NCBI GenBank assembly: GCA_027306695.1
Contig: DAHUZH010000002.1
Location: forward strand, 1-64,000
Origin: Acidobacteriaceae bacterium
GTDB lineage: Bacteria; Acidobacteriota; Terriglobia; Terriglobales; Acidobacteriaceae
Direction: 5' to 3'
DNA: 64,000 nt
This document shows, piece by piece, positions 37,272 through 45,953 of the stretch. Below the pieces are notes generated by a model. That model ran no database searches. It was not told the DNA's origin and saw only the letters and a program-made list of their open reading frames with translations. Every line of letters begins with the position of its first letter. The stretch's first letter is position 1. A program made the translations under genes and the position numbers.

Positions 37272-38192
37272 GTGACGAAGAACCTGTTTTTTATTGGGAT
37301 TGTCGTGGCCGCCAGTGGTCTGATTTCGCCTGCGTTGGCTTTGGCCGTCGGGTTGGTCTATGGGCTTACGATGGAACATCCCTTTCATGTAGAGAGCAAA
37401 CATCTCATAAAATTTCTGCTCCAGGCCTCCGTGGTTTTTTTAGGCTTCGGGATGAACTTGCAGCAAGTGGTGCGCGCTGGACGCTCCGGATTTATTTACA
37501 CCGCCATTACTATTACGATTGCGTTGTCGCTGGGAATGCTTTTAGGGCGTGTGCTCGGCGTTGGCCGCACGCAGGCCTTTCTCATTTCCGCTGGAACTGC
37601 GATTTGCGGCGGAAGCGCCATTGCCGCAGTTGGGCCGGTTATGAACGCTAACGATGAAGAGATGGCGGTTTCTCTGGGCACGGTTTTTGTGCTCAATTCC
37701 GTCGCGCTACTTTTGTTTCCATTTATCGGCGGGAAACTGCATCTGTCGCAGACGCAGTTCGGCCTGTGGGCTGCATTGGCCATCCACGATACCAGCTCTG
37801 TGGTGGGTGCGGCGGCAAAGTATGGCGCCCTGGCGCTGGTGATTGGCACGACGGTCAAGCTGGCACGCGCTTTGTGGATCGTGCCGCTTGCTATAGGCAC
37901 GGCTGCCGTTAAAAAGAGCAAGACAAAAATCCGGTGGCCATGGTTTATTTTGTACTTCTGTCTGGCTGCGGTCATGAACACCTATGTACATTCGTTCGCG
38001 GGTTTCTATCATGCATTTTCCAAGCTAGGGACAGATGGTCTGACGGTAACGCTTTTTCTCATTGGCACTGGGCTCACTCGTAAAACGTTAAAACAGGTAG
38101 GTTTTCGTCCCATGGTGCAAGGCGTCATGTTATGGGCCGTCATGGCGATTGGAACTCTGTGGGCCATCCGCAGCGGCAGGATCGCGCTGTGA
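37272..38192 (+). CDS. YeiH/UPF0324-family putative sulfate exporter
   Basis: 306 residues with about ten hydrophobic segments. Family signs: LIKFLLQASVVFLGFGMNL, LISAGTAICGGSAIAAVGPV, FVLNSVALLLFPFIG and IHDTSSVVGAA. In databases the group is named putative sulfate exporter; transport has not been shown for most members. It is convergent with the sulfur operon of the minus strand, which makes a sulfur link tempting but unproven. GTG 37272 is the start, with AAGG just upstream. Confidence 0.85.
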   Translation: MTKNLFFIGIVVAASGLISPALALAVGLVYGLTMEHPFHVESKHLIKFLLQASVVFLGFGMNLQQVVRAGRSGFIYTAITITIALSLGMLLGRVLGVGRTQAFLISAGTAICGGSAIAAVGPVMNANDEEMAVSLGTVFVLNSVALLLFPFIGGKLHLSQTQFGLWAALAIHDTSSVVGAAAKYGALALVIGTTVKLARALWIVPLAIGTAAVKKSKTKIRWPWFILYFCLAAVMNTYVHSFAGFYHAFSKLGTDGLTVTLFLIGTGLTRKTLKQVGFRPMVQGVMLWAVMAIGTLWAIRSGRIAL

Positions 38193-39002: not shown

Positions 39003-39803
39003 TTAAGTGTGCAGGGCACTCTCCGGTTGCTCACGAACAAGTTCTGCGGACAGAAAGCTTGTTGTTAAAGACGGCTGAAGTTCCCGCGTACCCAATAGCG
39101 CCCCAGCCAACACGAGAACGGGTGCTGGGCCCGGTTCAAAATCAGACAGGCGTCCGAGTGTGGCGTGCTGGACGGACTGGTCGGGCTGCGCGGCCCGGCT
39201 CACAATGGTGCATGGCAGTGTGGAAGGCAACCCACTCGCCAGCAACTCCCGCGCTAACTGACTGAGATCGCGGCCTGGCATGTAGATGCCGAGGGTTGCA
39301 TCTTCAGGCAATTTTTCATTCCATATCGAAGGGCAGCTTTGGTTCTCCGCGTGATGCGCGGTCGTCAAAATTATTTTTGAGGATGCGCGCCGATCTGTCA
39401 GTGGAGTTCGCAGCGCGGCTGCTGCGGCAAACATGGCGGTGATGCCCGGAACCACTTGGTAGGGAATGCCCGCTTGTTCGAGCGCCTCCATCTCTTCTCC
39501 CGCACGGCCAAACACAAGCGGGTCGCCGCTTTTAAGACGTACGACGCTCTGATCGCGCAGAGCGGCATCGATCATCAGGGAGTGAATGGCGGCCTGCGTG
39601 ATTCGTTTTTTGCCGCAGCGTTTGCCCACGTTCAGCAGGAGCGCTCGCGGGTTCACTCGCTCCAGCACCGGGGCAGGCACAAGGTCGTCATGCAGCACCA
39701 CATCGGCGGTCGCCAGCAAATCAGCCGCCTTCAACGTCAGCAATTCTGGATCGCCTGGACCTGCGCCGACCAGATATACCGTACCCTTCACTGCTACTGT
39801 CAT
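39003..39803 (-). CDS. cobA: Uroporphyrinogen-III C-methyltransferase (SUMT/CobA type)
   Basis: 266 residues. Methylates uroporphyrinogen III at C2 and C7 to precorrin-2 for siroheme. Landmarks: VYLVGAGPGDPELLTLKA, ADVVLHDDLVP, VVRLKSGDPLVFGRAGEE, VVPGITAMFAAAAAL and LGIYMPG. ATG 39803 has GAGGTG just upstream. It overlaps the Met8-type gene by 4 nt. With that enzyme it makes the siroheme that Sir needs. Confidence 0.92.
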   Translation of the reverse strand: MTVAVKGTVYLVGAGPGDPELLTLKAADLLATADVVLHDDLVPAPVLERVNPRALLLNVGKRCGKKRITQAAIHSLMIDAALRDQSVVRLKSGDPLVFGRAGEEMEALEQAGIPYQVVPGITAMFAAAAALRTPLTDRRASSKIILTTAHHAENQSCPSIWNEKLPEDATLGIYMPGRDLSQLARELLASGLPSTLPCTIVSRAAQPDQSVQHATLGRLSDFEPGPAPVLVLAGALLGTRELQPSLTTSFLSAELVREQPESALHT

Positions 39804-40429
39804 TGCACACCTCGTTCGATGTTGGATGGATGAAAGAATTTCCGCGATGGACATTCCGAGGATTCGCAGAGAGAACGCTGTGCCAATTGATGCAGCCAGG
39901 CCTTTCTCTCGCTGCTCGGCGGATAGGCGGCCAGTACTTCTCGACGCAATTTGCCGACTTCCGCAAGCCATGCGCCGGTGTCCGCAGGAAGTTGTTCGTC
40001 GATCTCGCGGCGCAAACGCTGGGCCAGCGCCGGGCTTTTCCCTGCGGTGGAAATTGCGATCTGTAAATCTCCGCGCTGCACGACGGAGGAAAAGTAAAAA
40101 TCGCAGTTCGGAGGGTCATCCACGGAATTGCACAGGATGCCACGCCTGCGTGCAGCCAGATAGACCGCGTGGTTGACCTCTGACGAATTTGTAGCGGCCA
40201 CGACCATGAATACATCCTCTAAATCCGCGTCCTGCAATATCTCGCGCCGCAGTGTGAGTTTGCCTGCGTCTGCCAGCACCTGTATCCCGGCCTGTATCTC
40301 GGGGGCAATAACGGTAAGGCTTGCTCCAGCTTGAAGCAGGCTCGAGATTTTTTCCGCAGCGACTTCTCCTGCTCCAACCACCAGACAAGGTCGGCCTTGC
40401 AACTTCAAAAAAATAGGGAACAAACTCAT
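39800..40429 (-). CDS. Precorrin-2 dehydrogenase / sirohydrochlorin ferrochelatase (Met8/CysG N-terminal type)
   Basis: 209 residues. NAD-dependent oxidation of precorrin-2 and likely iron insertion. MSLFPIFLKLQGRPCLVVGA begins the Rossmann fold; AATNSSEVNHAVY, CNSVDDPPNCDFYFSSVVQR and ISTAGKSPALAQRLRREID are the family motifs. It lies 25 nt after sir and overlaps the CobA-type gene by 4 nt. Confidence 0.92.
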   Translation of the reverse strand: MSLFPIFLKLQGRPCLVVGAGEVAAEKISSLLQAGASLTVIAPEIQAGIQVLADAGKLTLRREILQDADLEDVFMVVAATNSSEVNHAVYLAARRRGILCNSVDDPPNCDFYFSSVVQRGDLQIAISTAGKSPALAQRLRREIDEQLPADTGAWLAEVGKLRREVLAAYPPSSERKAWLHQLAQRSLCESSECPSRKFFHPSNIERGVQ

Positions 40430-40454: not shown

Positions 40455-42167
40455 TTACTCGGCTGCGTGCGGAACGCGCCCGGGAGAAGGATCGCGCTCT
40501 ACCGCGGCAGCCGGAATTCCAGCGAGCTGGGCGCGCAGGTCGGCATCACTCTGGCGCGAAAAATAAGCGCGCAAGTTTTCCTCTGCTTCGCGGTTGGAAA
40601 GATATCCGCGCAGCAGACGCTCCATCGCATTTGGAACTTCCGTGGCCGCGCAACGATAGCCGACCGTGCGCGCAGTTTTCTGGTGCAGCCCGACCGCCCC
40701 GCCCACACAAAAGTAATAAGCGTCGACCAGCTTGCCTTCCTGTTTTACCTTTTTTCCTTCGATCCCAATGTCGGCAATCCAGTGTTGTCCGCAACCGTTG
40801 GGGCAGCCGGTTACGTGCAGCTTCAACTGCTGGTCAAAGCCGGGCAGCCGCTGCTCCATCTCTTCCACCAGCCACCGAGTAAACGCTTTGGTCTCGGTAA
40901 TGGCGAGCTTGCAGAACTCCGTTCCGGTGCAGGCAATAGCGCCTCGCCAGAAGGGAGAGCCTTCGACGCGCAGCCCGATGGCCTCCAACTCTTTCCCCAG
41001 TTCGGGCGTGCGCGCGTTTGGAACATTGATGATGAGCAGGTTCTGCATCACCGTGGCACGTAGATCGCCAGTTCCGAATTTTTCCGCCAGTTCTGCTACT
41101 GCGAGCAGTTGGTCGCCGGAGAGTCTTCCTCGCAGCACGGACGCACCTACGAAACTCAATCCACTTTGTTTCTGCCGGTGCACGCCGACGTGATCGCGGA
41201 ATACATCGGAGGGAACAGACTCTTCGACTGCTGGATCCAGGCGGTATCCAAGCCTTGATTCAAGCTCAGAGAGAAAGGTCTGCGCGGTCCAGCCTTGCTT
41301 CAGGAAAAGATATTTCAAGCGTGCCCGGTCGCGGCTTTCCCGCAGCTCTTGTTGATCGCGAAAAATTTCCGTGATGGCGCGAACAGTGCTCAGTACCTGA
41401 TGGGGACGGATAAATGCATCCAGCTTGACGGCCAGGTGAGGCTCGGAAGACAGGCCACCGCCCACGCGCAAAGAATAGCCCGCATCTACCCCGTGGGATG
41501 TTTCTCTCTGCACGGCCGTCAGCCCGATGTCGTTAATTTCAGGATATGTGCACCACGAAGGGCATCCTGTCAGGGAGATTTTGAATTTACGCGGCAGGTT
41601 GTAGAAATCTGGATTTGCCGTGAGATCGCGCGCAACTTCCAGCGCAAGCGTAGAAGCGTCGGCAATCTCATCCGCTGCGATGCCTGCCAGCGGGCAACCT
41701 GTAACGTTGCGCACCACGTCGCCGCAAGCACCCTTGGGAGACAGTCCGACTTGACTAAACGTGTCGACAATCTCCGGCAGAGATTCGATCGTGAGCCAGT
41801 GCAACTGGATGTTCTGCCGCACAGTAATGTCGGCGAGGTTGCGCGCATGGCGCTTGGTAATATTTGCGATGACTCGCACCTGGTTGGCGTGCAGAATACC
41901 GTTGGGCACGCCAATGCGCATCATGAAATACTCCGTCGCTTTGCCTTCGCCGCCTGTGCCTCCCACCGCGCCCACGCCGTCTCCCTGCGTGTAGATGCCC
42001 CACCATTTGAAATAGGCAGACGCCCATTCCGGTAACACGCTGCTGCGTCCCTCGCGGGCAAACTGGCGCACCTCATCGAAGACTTCCCATGGATTTTTTT
42101 CAAGCTTCAGGCGCTCCATTTTTTGCGCTTTGGTTTCTTTTACGGGGGCGGTGATCGTCGTGGTCAT
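40455..42167 (-). CDS. sir: Ferredoxin-type sulfite (or nitrite) reductase, siroheme enzyme
   Basis: 570 residues. Siroheme and 4Fe-4S ligands are C413 and C419 (CTGTEFC) and C455 and C459 (VTGCPNGCG). The N-terminal half holds the ferredoxin-like repeats (ANITKRHARNLADITVRQN, IQLHWLTIESLPEIVDTF and CGDVVRNVTGCPL). Sulfite reduction is preferred over nitrite because of the cysDNH and siroheme neighbours. It reduces sulfite to sulfide for cysteine. AGGA lies 6-9 nt before ATG 42167. Confidence 0.92.
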   Translation of the reverse strand: MTTTITAPVKETKAQKMERLKLEKNPWEVFDEVRQFAREGRSSVLPEWASAYFKWWGIYTQGDGVGAVGGTGGEGKATEYFMMRIGVPNGILHANQVRVIANITKRHARNLADITVRQNIQLHWLTIESLPEIVDTFSQVGLSPKGACGDVVRNVTGCPLAGIAADEIADASTLALEVARDLTANPDFYNLPRKFKISLTGCPSWCTYPEINDIGLTAVQRETSHGVDAGYSLRVGGGLSSEPHLAVKLDAFIRPHQVLSTVRAITEIFRDQQELRESRDRARLKYLFLKQGWTAQTFLSELESRLGYRLDPAVEESVPSDVFRDHVGVHRQKQSGLSFVGASVLRGRLSGDQLLAVAELAEKFGTGDLRATVMQNLLIINVPNARTPELGKELEAIGLRVEGSPFWRGAIACTGTEFCKLAITETKAFTRWLVEEMEQRLPGFDQQLKLHVTGCPNGCGQHWIADIGIEGKKVKQEGKLVDAYYFCVGGAVGLHQKTARTVGYRCAATEVPNAMERLLRGYLSNREAEENLRAYFSRQSDADLRAQLAGIPAAAVERDPSPGRVPHAAE

Positions 42168-42207: not shown

Positions 42208-42900
42208 CTAAGAAGTCTTTTCGCTGAATGTGTGAATGCCGCACTCCAGTTTTTTTCCAGACCAGCGGCCCGAACGTGGATTGTTCGGGTCTTCTGGAAT
42301 GGACGTGCAGGGCTCGCAACCGATGCTGGCGTATCCCTGGTCGTAAAGCGGTAAATAGTCGATCTCATTGCGCGTGAGATATTCCCACACCTGCTTCCAG
42401 TTCCACTCGGCGAGTGGGCTCACCTTCAACAACGTCTTGTCGCTGGGAAGCACATGCTGTTCCACCTGGCGCAAATTCTTTCGCGTGGGTGATTGTTCTC
42501 TCCGCAGACCGGTGAACCAAATGTCATACTGTTCCAGCCCGCGCATCAACGGCCCAACCTTGCGCAGGCCGCAGCAGCGCGTCGGGTCGCTCTGGTTCAG
42601 GATGCCGAAGGCCGCTTCCTGCTCTTCGACGGTCTGCTCCGCCTGGAGGTTCGTCAGATTGAGGGACCATTTCCGCACCATGGTGTCCCGATAGGAGTAG
42701 GTCTCGGCAAAGTGATAGCCGGTATCGAGAAACAGCACAGGGATCTCGGGATTGAGTTGACGAAGCAGATGCAGCACGATCATGTCTTCGGCCTGAAAGC
42801 TGTTCGTGATGCATGGATGGCCTGGCTGGCGCAGGATTTCGCCGATCAACAACTCGGGTGGGAGCACTTGCCAATCGGGATGGATTTCGGGTCCGCTCAT
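42208..42900 (-). CDS. cysH: Adenylyl-sulfate reductase of the APS type
   Basis: 230 residues. Reduces activated sulfate to sulfite with thioredoxin. Paired cysteines C109-C110 (RCCGLRK) and C195/C198 (GCEPC) form the 4Fe-4S site that marks APS-specific enzymes; the C-terminal ECGIH (C220) is the redox cysteine. Other signs are NSFQAEDMIVLHLL, FLDTGYHF and WFTGLRREQSPTR. ATG 42900 is 1 nt from the cysN stop. Using APS directly means no APS kinase is needed, which fits the degenerate CysC-like tail of CysN. Confidence 0.92.
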   Translation of the reverse strand: MSGPEIHPDWQVLPPELLIGEILRQPGHPCITNSFQAEDMIVLHLLRQLNPEIPVLFLDTGYHFAETYSYRDTMVRKWSLNLTNLQAEQTVEEQEAAFGILNQSDPTRCCGLRKVGPLMRGLEQYDIWFTGLRREQSPTRKNLRQVEQHVLPSDKTLLKVSPLAEWNWKQVWEYLTRNEIDYLPLYDQGYASIGCEPCTSIPEDPNNPRSGRWSGKKLECGIHTFSEKTS

Positions 42901-42901
42901 G

Positions 42902-44716
42902 CTAGGAATACCTTTCCGGAGATGAAATTCGCAGACCTTCGATCCAGTTCAAAATGGACCGCACGGCGGGCGACTGGAGCCACGCATCGTCGTCGGAAGC
43001 GTCTGGCTGAGAAGGCGCTGCATCGAGGACATGTCTTGCGTCCAGTACATGCGCGGACTGAAGGGTTGCGTGGATGATCGCGGGCAGATGAGATGGTTCG
43101 TGTTCCGCATGGTGCGCGGCCGTGTACAGCGCAACAATTCCGGCGACATACAGCGTGCGCACGCAATCGCGAGTGGAAAGCAAGTCGCGGTCTTTGTCCT
43201 CCACCCAAAGCGCGTTGTGTCCGGAGTCGAAAAGAATGCGCTCCAGCCGCTGCGCGAGCGAAGCCTGCGTTCCCAGCCATATTGCGGCGGGGGCGTGGCC
43301 CTGTTTCTGGAAGCGCTCCGCGGCCGTGACCAGACGCGGCAGCGAAGTCATTTCTTCGGCGGTCAGCGCGGACGGCAATTGCGAAGTAGCGACTGCTTTC
43401 TTCTGTGCAAGGTTGCGGGTAATCATTCCCGCGCCGACGGTGGCGTTGGTCAGGGGATCGATCAGGATGAAGCTTCCAGCGATGCGGTTTTCTGCGTACA
43501 GATCGAAAAACAGCGGGCTGGTACTTTCAAATTCCACCACGCCGATGTCGTTCAATCCAAGCGCGGTCGCGGAGGAATGCTGCATGGTGATGACATCCAC
43601 GCGGCTGCGAATCCTATGCGCCTCCGCCCGGACCTGCCGCGTAGTGTGTTTCAAAAGCCATTGTTTGTGTAGCTCCAGGGGGACCTCGTGCATCCAGACC
43701 ACATTGGCCGCAAAACGGCGACTGACTTGCGGCGGACGTTCCGGATCCACGAGAACATCGCCTCTACTGAGGTCGATTTCATCTTCCAGCGTGAGCGTGA
43801 TGGAAGCGCCTTCGGCCGCCACCGGCAGTTCTCCATCGAAGGTGACGATGGATTGCACGCGCGTAGTTTGCCGCGACGGCAACACCATGACCGCGTCGCC
43901 AGGGCGGACCGAACCGGAAGCGATCTGTCCGGCGAAGCCGCGGAATTCGTCTCCCGGTCGAATGACGTATTGGACAGGGAAGCGAAAGGCGGCGCTGTCC
44001 TTCAAGCGCGTTACCGGGACCTGCTCCAGATATTCGACCAGGGTCGGGCCGGAGTACCACGGCATCCGCTGACTGTGCGTGACGACGTTATCTCCCTCGA
44101 GCGCGCTGATGGGAATGCATTGGATGGAAAGCGCGGCTTCGGGACGGATCTGCTTCGCCAGCGTTTGCAGGTCGTTTTGCAGTCCATGGAAAATCTGCTC
44201 GGAATAATCCACCAGGTCCATCTTGTTGATGGCCGCAACGATGTGCGGAATTCCCAGCAGGGACGCGATGTAGGCATGGCGGCGCGATTGCGGCAACAGT
44301 CCCTTGCGCGCATCGACCAGCACGACGGCGGCATCGGCGGTAGAGGCGCCGGTCGCCATGTTGCGTGTGTATTGTTCGTGGCCCGGCGTGTCGGCAATGA
44401 TGAACTTTCGGCGCGCGGTTGAGAAATAGCGGTACGCTACATCGATGGTGATGCCCTGCTCTCGTTCGGCGCGCAGCCCATCGGTCAACAGAGAGAAGTC
44501 GAGCGGGCCTGTCGAGCGGTTCAGGCGGCCACTCCGCACTGCCTGCATCTGGTCTTCATAGACCGCCTTCGAGTCGTAAAGAAGCCGCCCGATCAGCGTC
44601 GACTTGCCATCGTCCACGCTGCCCGCAGTGGTGAAGCGCAGCAGATCGTGTCCGAGATGCTGCCGCAGCAGATGCTCGAACGGGGCCGCTTCCACATTTT
44701 GTTGCGAAACCGCCAT
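42902..44716 (-). CDS. cysN: Sulfate adenylyltransferase subunit 1 (CysN) with degenerate CysC-like tail
   Basis: 604 residues. GTPase partner of CysD. P-loop GSVDDGKS (32-39), DTPGH (109-113), NKMD (164-167), then two beta-barrel domains. Typical CysN ends near residue 430-475. Here residues about 475-604 continue with AAIWLGTQASLAQRLERILF, then VEDKDRDLLSTRDCVRTLYV, AGIVALYTAAH and HATLQSAHVLDARHVLDA. These align in order with APS kinase (CysC), but the P-loop GLSGAGKS is replaced by GTQASLAQ, so kinase activity is unlikely. ATG 44716 shares its A with the cysD stop TGA. A bifunctional NodQ-like ancestor is likely. Confidence 0.88.
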   Translation of the reverse strand: MAVSQQNVEAAPFEHLLRQHLGHDLLRFTTAGSVDDGKSTLIGRLLYDSKAVYEDQMQAVRSGRLNRSTGPLDFSLLTDGLRAEREQGITIDVAYRYFSTARRKFIIADTPGHEQYTRNMATGASTADAAVVLVDARKGLLPQSRRHAYIASLLGIPHIVAAINKMDLVDYSEQIFHGLQNDLQTLAKQIRPEAALSIQCIPISALEGDNVVTHSQRMPWYSGPTLVEYLEQVPVTRLKDSAAFRFPVQYVIRPGDEFRGFAGQIASGSVRPGDAVMVLPSRQTTRVQSIVTFDGELPVAAEGASITLTLEDEIDLSRGDVLVDPERPPQVSRRFAANVVWMHEVPLELHKQWLLKHTTRQVRAEAHRIRSRVDVITMQHSSATALGLNDIGVVEFESTSPLFFDLYAENRIAGSFILIDPLTNATVGAGMITRNLAQKKAVATSQLPSALTAEEMTSLPRLVTAAERFQKQGHAPAAIWLGTQASLAQRLERILFDSGHNALWVEDKDRDLLSTRDCVRTLYVAGIVALYTAAHHAEHEPSHLPAIIHATLQSAHVLDARHVLDAAPSQPDASDDDAWLQSPAVRSILNWIEGLRISSPERYS

Positions 44717-45681
44717 CAAAAATAGCCCTCGCGTTTCTTCAGTTCCATGGAGCCTTCTTCATCGTGGTCGATGGCGCGATTTTCCCGTTCGGACCGCTGG
44801 AAGGTGAACATTTCCTGAATGATTTTCGGCAGGGTATCGGCGGTGGACTCGATGGCCCCGGTGCAGGGCACGCAACCGAGCGAGCGCATGCGCACGACCC
44901 TGCGCTGCGGAACTTCCTTCGGAAGCAATGGGATTGGGCCCTGCGTCAGCAGCATGGAGCCGCCGCGCACCACTACCTCGCGCTCTTTGGCGAAATATAA
45001 GGGGACGATGGGAATGTTTTCCTTGTAGATATAGAGCCAGATGTCGAGCTCGGTCCAGTTGGAAAGCGGAAAGATACGGATGTGTTCGCCCTTTGCGAGC
45101 CGCCCGTTGTAGTGGTTCCAGAGTTCAGGTCGCTGGTTGCGCGGGTCCCACTGCCCGGCGGAATCGCGAAACGAATAGATGCGCTCCTTGGCGCGAGATT
45201 TTTCCTCGTCGCGCCGCGCGCCCCCGAAAGCCGCGTCGAAACCACCCGATTCGAGCGCATCCAGCAAGGCGCGCGTCTTCAGCAGCCCACAGCATTTTTG
45301 TGTTCCCAGCTTGAACGGACTGGCGCCATCCTGGAGCGCCTGCCGGTTGCCGTGGACGATCAACTCCGCGCCAATTTCTCGCGTGTAGTTGTCGCGGAAC
45401 GCAACCATCTCCGGAAATTTGTAACTAGTATCGACATGCAGGAGCGGGAACGGAATTTTGCCCGGATGAAACGCCTTTTGCGCCAGCCGCAACAGGACGG
45501 AGGAGTCCTTGCCGATCGAATAGAGCATCACGGGCCGGGCAAAGTCCGCAACTGCCTCGCGCAGAATGTGAATGCTCTCCGCTTCAAGCGATGCTAGATG
45601 GCTGGAATCGGCAGGCGCGCCAATGCCTGCTGTAAGGACGGGGATTGGGATCTCTGGAGCTACTTCAAGTAATTGGGTCAT
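44716..45681 (-). CDS. cysD: Sulfate adenylyltransferase subunit 2 (CysD)
   Basis: 321 residues. Makes APS from ATP and sulfate with CysN. PP-loop [73 protein letters not shown] and [14 protein letters not shown] are all present. AGGA lies 8-11 nt before ATG 45681. It is the first gene of the operon after the leader region at 45738-45953, so its transcription is probably controlled by the Cys/Met-codon attenuator. Confidence 0.95.
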
Positions 45682-45737: not shown

Positions 45738-45772
45738 AAAAGCCCACCAGGACGATTCTTCTGTCGGTGGGC
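45738..45772 (-). terminator. Attenuator terminator before cysD
   Basis: On the minus strand GCCCACC (45772-45766) pairs perfectly with GGTGGGC (45748-45742), with a 17-nt loop, followed by TTTT (45741-45738). It stands 57 nt before cysD and 34 nt after the leader peptide stop. The GCCCACC arm can instead pair with GGCGGGC of the leader coding region (45830-45824, one mismatch in seven), which would prevent the terminator. A separate small hairpin (GAAGCTG/CAGCTTC, 45796-45814) contains the leader stop codon. Confidence 0.75.
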
Positions 45773-45806
45773 GAAAGATTTTAGGGTCTTACTTTGAAGC
45801 TGGGTT

Positions 45807-45914
45807 TCAGCTTCTTAGAGTGTGCCCGCCCGTCCAGAAGATGTGCGATTGTGCCCGCATGGAACACATGGGACACATGCACATACAGCGGGTCTGAAGG
45901 GCCGACACTTGCAT
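45807..45914 (-). CDS. Cys/Met-rich leader peptide of the cysDNH operon
   Basis: A 35-codon frame, MQVSALQTRC then MCMCPMCSM and RAQSHIFWTGGHTLRS, ending TGA at 45807. It has four cysteine and four methionine codons in a 10-codon run (45885 to 45858). It begins 4 nt below the predicted transcription start and shows no Shine-Dalgarno, so translation would be near-leaderless. The run sits upstream of an alternative pairing region, as in classic amino-acid attenuators. I propose that stalling at Cys (or Met) codons leaves GGCGGGC free to form an antiterminator. The amino-acid bias is visible; regulation is inference. Confidence 0.72.
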   Translation of the reverse strand: MQVSALQTRCMCMCPMCSMRAQSHIFWTGGHTLRS

Positions 45915-45924
45915 CGTGAATCCA

Positions 45925-45953
45925 ATCTTATCCGCGAGTCCGTGCCGAGTCAA
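45925..45953 (-). promoter_or_regulatory. Predicted sigma-70 promoter of the cysDNH operon
   Basis: Minus strand: -35 TTGACT (45953-45948), 17-nt spacer, -10 TAAGAT (45930-45925). The start point expected near 45918 is 4 nt before the leader ATG at 45914. It lies between the ilvA stop and the leader. Confidence 0.65.

Follow-up and report, generated by a model that had tools for sequence, protein, structure and literature searches.

A predicted cysteine-codon transcription attenuator upstream of sulfate assimilation genes in Acidobacteriota

The uORFC-8-2 motif, which lies before cysS in Rhodobacterales, is predicted to function in ribosome-mediated attenuation by Cys-tRNA (PMC8632094), and candidate Cys leader peptides have been predicted before cys operons in Actinobacteria (PMC1262725). 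Leaderless polycysteine short open reading frames (ORFs) of mycobacteria are cysteine-responsive and are described as acting through translation attenuation (Canestrari et al. 2020 via PMC9031893, PMC9094748, PMC13236596). A leaderless leader peptide within a classical attenuator is provided by Sinorhizobium meliloti trpL, whose RNA starts at the ATG of the peptide (PMC7298713). As for Acidobacteria, almost no attenuator predicted in a 2010 survey had an assigned function (PMC2965389).

The window analysed here, a 64,000-nucleotide stretch of Acidobacteriaceae DNA, contains a sulfate assimilation operon with the gene order cysD-cysN-cysH-sir-cysG (names taken from NCBIfam profile matches), and ilvA, encoding threonine ammonia-lyase (NCBIfam), is the upstream neighbour. 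The initial annotation of this DNA had placed before cysD a 35-codon frame with the motif CMCMCPMCSM, followed by a terminator hairpin (GCCCACC/GGTGGGC and four Ts), and all of these elements are found in the sequence (Table 1). The motif brings four Cys codons within eight, and the U-tract of the terminator is only four long. A consensus scan of the region found one sigma-70 promoter, against 0.3 expected, and its spacing to the start codon is the same in relatives. The leader RNA of the window folds far better than shuffled sequences (z of -4.97; 0 of 200 shuffles), and genus relatives have a hairpin similar to the one that spans its stop codon. Rfam models (SAM riboswitches, T-box and others) gave nothing above gathering score anywhere in the window, and the leader ORF matches no NCBIfam family.

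Elsewhere at the locus, CysN is 605 residues long and beyond residue ~457 has only a partial, sub-cut-off match to the CysN/CysC bifunctional model (window positions 42902-43400), possibly a degenerate APS kinase domain. We take a nearby ORF on the plus strand (37272-38192) to resemble a YeiH-type putative sulfate exporter.

Table 1. Features of the leader and operon, in window coordinates.
Feature	Position	Strand	Basis
Promoter, sigma-70-type, TTGACT-17-TAAGAT	45953-45925	-	Consensus scan, 9/12 matches
Inferred transcription start zone, ~2-5 nt before ATG	45915..45919	-	10 nt between -10 box and ATG; family-wide statistic
Leader peptide ORF, 35 codons, MQVSALQTRCMCMCPMCSMRAQSHIFWTGGHTLRS	45914-45807	-	Stop TGA 45809-45807; Cys-rich short ORF conserved before cysD
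Putative regulatory Cys codons 10, 12, 14, 17 (TGT, TGC, TGT, TGT)	45864..45887	-	Sequence; Cys enrichment in leaders
Predicted antiterminator 5' strand, UCUUCUGGACGGGCGGGC, within leader codons 25-31	45824..45841	-	Fold of transcript cut before terminator 3' arm
Predicted antiterminator 3' strand (terminator 5' arm, 45772-45766, and loop)	45757..45772	-	Same cut-transcript fold
Predicted small hairpin spanning stop codon, GAAGCUGAAACCCAGCUUC, inside antiterminator	45796..45814	-	Folding
Intrinsic terminator	45772-45738	-	GCCCACC 45772-45766, GGTGGGC 45748-45742, TTTT 45741-45738; equivalents in relatives
cysD, sulfate adenylyltransferase small subunit	44716..45681	-	TIGR02039, 451.7 bits, exceeds cut-off of 396.6; start at 45681
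cysN, sulfate adenylyltransferase large subunit	42902..44719	-	TIGR02034, 585.5 bits, above cut-off
cysH, (phospho)adenylyl-sulfate reductase	42208..42900	-	TIGR00434, 202.6 bits, above cut-off
sir, sulfite/nitrite reductase (NirA-like), the operon's sulfite reductase	40455..42167	-	NirA-family, 381.6 bits, below the family's own cut-off
Siroheme synthase N-terminal domain protein (cysG N-term)	39800..40429	-	TIGR01470, 171.4 bits, above cut-off

The initial annotation had proposed looking for the same leader before cysD in other acidobacteria, and this search found it widely. Defining a Cys-clustered ORF as one of 10-70 codons with at least four Cys in 12 codons, we identified such ORFs upstream of cysD on the coding strand of 59 of 94 regions from the family and phylum, against 6 of 94 on the opposite strand; since these counts, like those for other genes below, are drawn from related genomes, p-values overstate their independence. 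Among amino acids, cysteine alone shows a strong coding-strand excess in these 94 regions. Within the window's genus (10 genomes, including the 'Acidobacteria bacterium' MAGs JAJZCA010000006.1 and JAJYUB010000009.1), a short Cys-rich ORF precedes cysD in each of the nine other genomes, and their terminators agree in position with that of the window. The leader peptides of these relatives diverge greatly (MNFSTTRMGCLCCVCTM..., MALRGQMRCMCCMSLDMC... and MVSKLSILDCRMQCNCCCSND...) with Cys density kept, and relatives' clusters read CLCCVC, CNCCC or CCCCCC, without Met. Across genera, neither peptide sequence nor Cys spacing is conserved, only Cys density. Absence of conserved Cys codons or competing pairs had been named as evidence against an attenuator; both the Cys cluster and the competing pairing are kept in relatives.

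Leader and terminator also occur together in further families of Acidobacteriota (L042, L043, L044 and L051), whereas upstream of CysD relatives from other phyla and Bryobacterales Cys ORFs are at chance level at most. A strict intrinsic terminator follows 37 of the cysD leaders, and about 30 are without a strict U-tract terminator. Five cysD upstream regions (L056, L075, L089, L090 and L091) have a Cys leader and then, where the terminator would be, a strong hairpin with a poor U-tract; these could be Rho-assisted or translational variants. A family-wide search for five consecutive Cys codons was dropped as a means of finding members, being swamped by repeats.

The leader arrangement is not special to cysD but is also found before sir genes that form an operon of their own. 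Cys-clustered ORFs precede sir in 52 of 70 regions from a family-wide search for sir, against 2 of 70 on the reverse strand, span 39 genera and include very Cys-dense examples with 8 to 10 Cys per 12 codons (L201, L210); they are also present in genomes that lack this cysD. Among 66 sir leaders, 58 have a strict terminator ~31 nt past the stop, so that a canonical terminator lies ~30 nt past the stop codon in 95 leaders (37 cysD and 58 sir). Since the arrangement occurs in every genus relative and is strongly biased to the coding strand before both cysD and sir, chance does not account for it.

Searching for DNA similar to the window leader likewise turned up copies away from cysD. In two genomes (G005 and G007) a leader copy precedes sir while cysD, located elsewhere, has its own leader. 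In these genomes the Cys leader is separated from sir by remnants of the cysD start and the cysH end (L163, G005:C122; L162, G007:C135), as if cysDNH had been deleted and the leader left in place. Three others (G002, G008 and G009) have sir split from cysDNH, with a separate Cys leader for each operon; the one directly before sir is different (MKFHTMTAICCMCMCPMRLRRSYV and close variants) and has its own terminator. A sir gene embedded in the cysD operon, the situation in the window, lacks a separate leader (L164, L165).

The association is specific for cysteine and for sulfur genes. Control upstream regions are at background, with Cys-clustered ORFs in 1 of 30 for hisG, 2 of 30 for cysS and 3 of 30 for cysK, against 1, 3 and 4, respectively, on the reverse strand. 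Two individual cysK genes follow poly-Cys short ORFs (L305, G037:C8, ...PCACCCCCCR; L307, G041:C1, MLQCLPVNAPFYACCCCC), while the cysK group as a whole does not rise above background; in some genera the regulon may extend to cysK.

Promoter positions suggest that these leaders are translated from a near-leaderless start. Transcription generally initiates ~7 nt past the -10 box, and on this basis the 5' leader is predicted to be 0 to 6 nt long. The first in-frame start codon falls 5-13 nt past the -10 box of a promoter scoring at least 8 in 33 of 60 leaders, against 2.3 in shuffles (maximum 6), and a Shine-Dalgarno-like motif is present in 4 of 56. Such a start fits the group, as ~13% of genes are predicted to be leaderless in Acidobacteria (PMC3160421).

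The initial annotation further held that the leader forms two exclusive structures through pairing of GGCGGGC (45830-45824) with the terminator arm at six of seven positions. Folding of both structures agrees that they are mutually exclusive and dependent on ribosome position, and the GGCGGGC segment is present and pairs, but the helix is longer than the six or seven pairs envisaged. With the ribosome stalled at the Cys cluster, 45841-45824 pairs with 45772-45757 over 14 bp (45841-45835/45763-45757, 45832-45830/45767-45765 and 45827-45824/45772-45769), taking the terminator's 5' arm and loop. At equilibrium, a ribosome placed at the Cys codons gives a modelled terminator probability of 0.02 in the window and one at the stop codon gives 1.00, the latter in line with the proposal that translation to the stop favours termination. 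When the spacer is shuffled, the probability averages 0.91 and is as low as the stalled value in 2% of cases.

Equilibrium folding with the full terminator discriminates stall from stop in few relatives (mean terminator probability 0.76 and 0.96, respectively), and in most of them the terminator beats the antiterminator even with a stalled ribosome. The argument therefore relies on co-transcriptional folding, and the mechanism must be kinetic, as in other attenuators. Equilibrium folding was replaced by co-transcriptional folds of transcripts cut before the terminator 3' arm, with a mask for the ribosome footprint. Capture of the terminator 5' arm in cut transcripts averages 0.74 with stall, 0.21 at stop and 0.51 in shuffles for the 37 cysD leaders, stall being highest in 37 of 37 under a first stop-state model that ignored RNA behind the ribosome and overstated the contrast. 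For the 58 sir leaders the averages are 0.63, 0.20 and 0.46; the stall value exceeds the stop value in 56 of them and the shuffled value in 53, the other five having no antiterminator above shuffles. With a 30-nt footprint mask, stall exceeds stop in 33 of 37 cysD and 46 of 58 sir leaders (79 of 95 in total). In these models the antiterminator and terminator are mutually exclusive and depend on ribosome position. Stalling at either Cys or Met codons had been expected to favour antitermination; the models uphold this for Cys, whereas the Met codons are not conserved.

The best-supported reading of the locus, and in our judgement a highly probable one, is ribosome-mediated transcription attenuation, with charged Cys-tRNA as the signal, before the sulfate assimilation operon, as had been proposed. 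It is supported because ORF, Cys cluster, terminator and competing antiterminator are conserved in many genera despite divergence of the peptide. We infer that the leader ORF is translated, that ribosomes stall in it, that transcription terminates prematurely and that the system responds to cysteine. Transcription would start 2-5 nt upstream of the AUG, with a ribosome beginning translation of the near-leaderless 35-codon ORF. When Cys-tRNA is scarce, the ribosome would stall at codons 10-17 and leave 45841-45824 available for pairing with 45772-45757; with the terminator 5' arm captured in this way, polymerase would read on into cysD-N-H-sir-cysG. When cysteine is plentiful, the ribosome would reach the stop codon and cover or disrupt the antiterminator, so that the hairpin at 45772-45742 with its U-tract would form and transcription would end near 45738.

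Alternatively, Cys stalling might act mainly on cysD translation or via Rho, as in the mycobacterial polycysteine leaders, with the hairpin and U-tract secondary. Translation attenuation is what is described for the mycobacterial Cys leaders (PMC13236596, PMC9031893), Cys leaders without terminators have been described (PMC1262725), and the U-tract is weak or absent in ~30 Acidobacteriota leaders. We nevertheless regard this alternative as improbable: the canonical terminator sits at a near-constant distance past the stop in 95 leaders, the leader RNA is predicted to capture that terminator's 5' arm, and the cysD ribosome-binding region of the window lies outside the competing structures.

That the ORF encodes a small functional Cys-rich protein, metal- or thiol-binding and located before cysD by coincidence, would fit its CxC and CC motifs, and the lack of an NCBIfam family means that no function is excluded. 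Such a protein is hard to reconcile with Cys density being kept across genera while sequence and spacing are not, with a conserved C-terminal segment that coincides with the antiterminator strand, or with an ORF that accompanies cysD or sir only and is at background before hisG, cysS and cysK, and we consider it very unlikely. Sensing of methionine in addition to cysteine appears slightly less likely still. The window leader has four Met codons in among its Cys codons, and Met recurs at that place in some genus relatives, but in most leaders of the family the Cys runs contain no Met, and Met clusters (at least four in 12 codons) occur in 8 of 94 cysD regions, against 59 of 94 for Cys. Judged from codon content, methionine is probably not sensed.

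Returning to the Cys-tRNA-sensing transcription attenuator, we lean towards a broader view in which Acidobacteriota possess a phylum-level cysteine regulon, controlled by near-leaderless Cys-codon attenuators that re-evolved or were carried independently before each sulfur operon (cysD, sir and at times cysK) and resemble by convergence the polycysteine leaders that act on translation in mycobacteria. The proposed attenuators provide a control mechanism for sulfur assimilation, specific and open to testing, in this large and little-cultivated phylum, add a terminator-based form of cysteine attenuation beside the translational kind known from mycobacteria, and make ~100 diverged natural variants available for studying how leaderless translation is coupled to transcription. 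We found no published report of such leaders in Acidobacteriota or of this combination, which is weak evidence as the literature covered has few subscription journals.

A comparison with described systems places these leaders close to several of them. Like uORFC-8-2, they consist of a short ORF with Cys codons and then an intrinsic terminator, but that motif has a tandem Cys pair and precedes cysS in alphaproteobacteria (PMC8632094), whereas the window leader precedes sulfate assimilation genes. Membership in uORFC-8-2 was considered and rejected: the leaders here lie before cysD or sir, and cysS of this family is at background. The actinobacterial candidates share the short ORF with runs of Cys ahead of cys operons but are without conserved terminator hairpins and have their Cys runs near the stop codon (PMC1262725). 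With the mycobacterial leaders, the likeness is a leaderless Cys-rich ORF before sulfur genes (near-leaderless here, by promoter prediction); control there is described as translation attenuation, in contrast to the intrinsic terminator and competing antiterminator here, and because canonical terminators are present we do not class the two together. Trp-type attenuators offer a parallel in leader ORF, regulatory codons and mutually exclusive terminator and antiterminator. As in that type, codons for the end product of the operon cluster in a short ORF (in the window, 59 of 94 cysD and 52 of 70 sir regions), and an intrinsic terminator separates the leader ORF from the first gene (in the window and 95 leaders); the amino acid sensed, the operon and the phylum differ. 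The principle is thus an ordinary one, found in a new phylum and in a new combination of Cys codons, intrinsic terminator, near-leaderless start and two sulfur operons.
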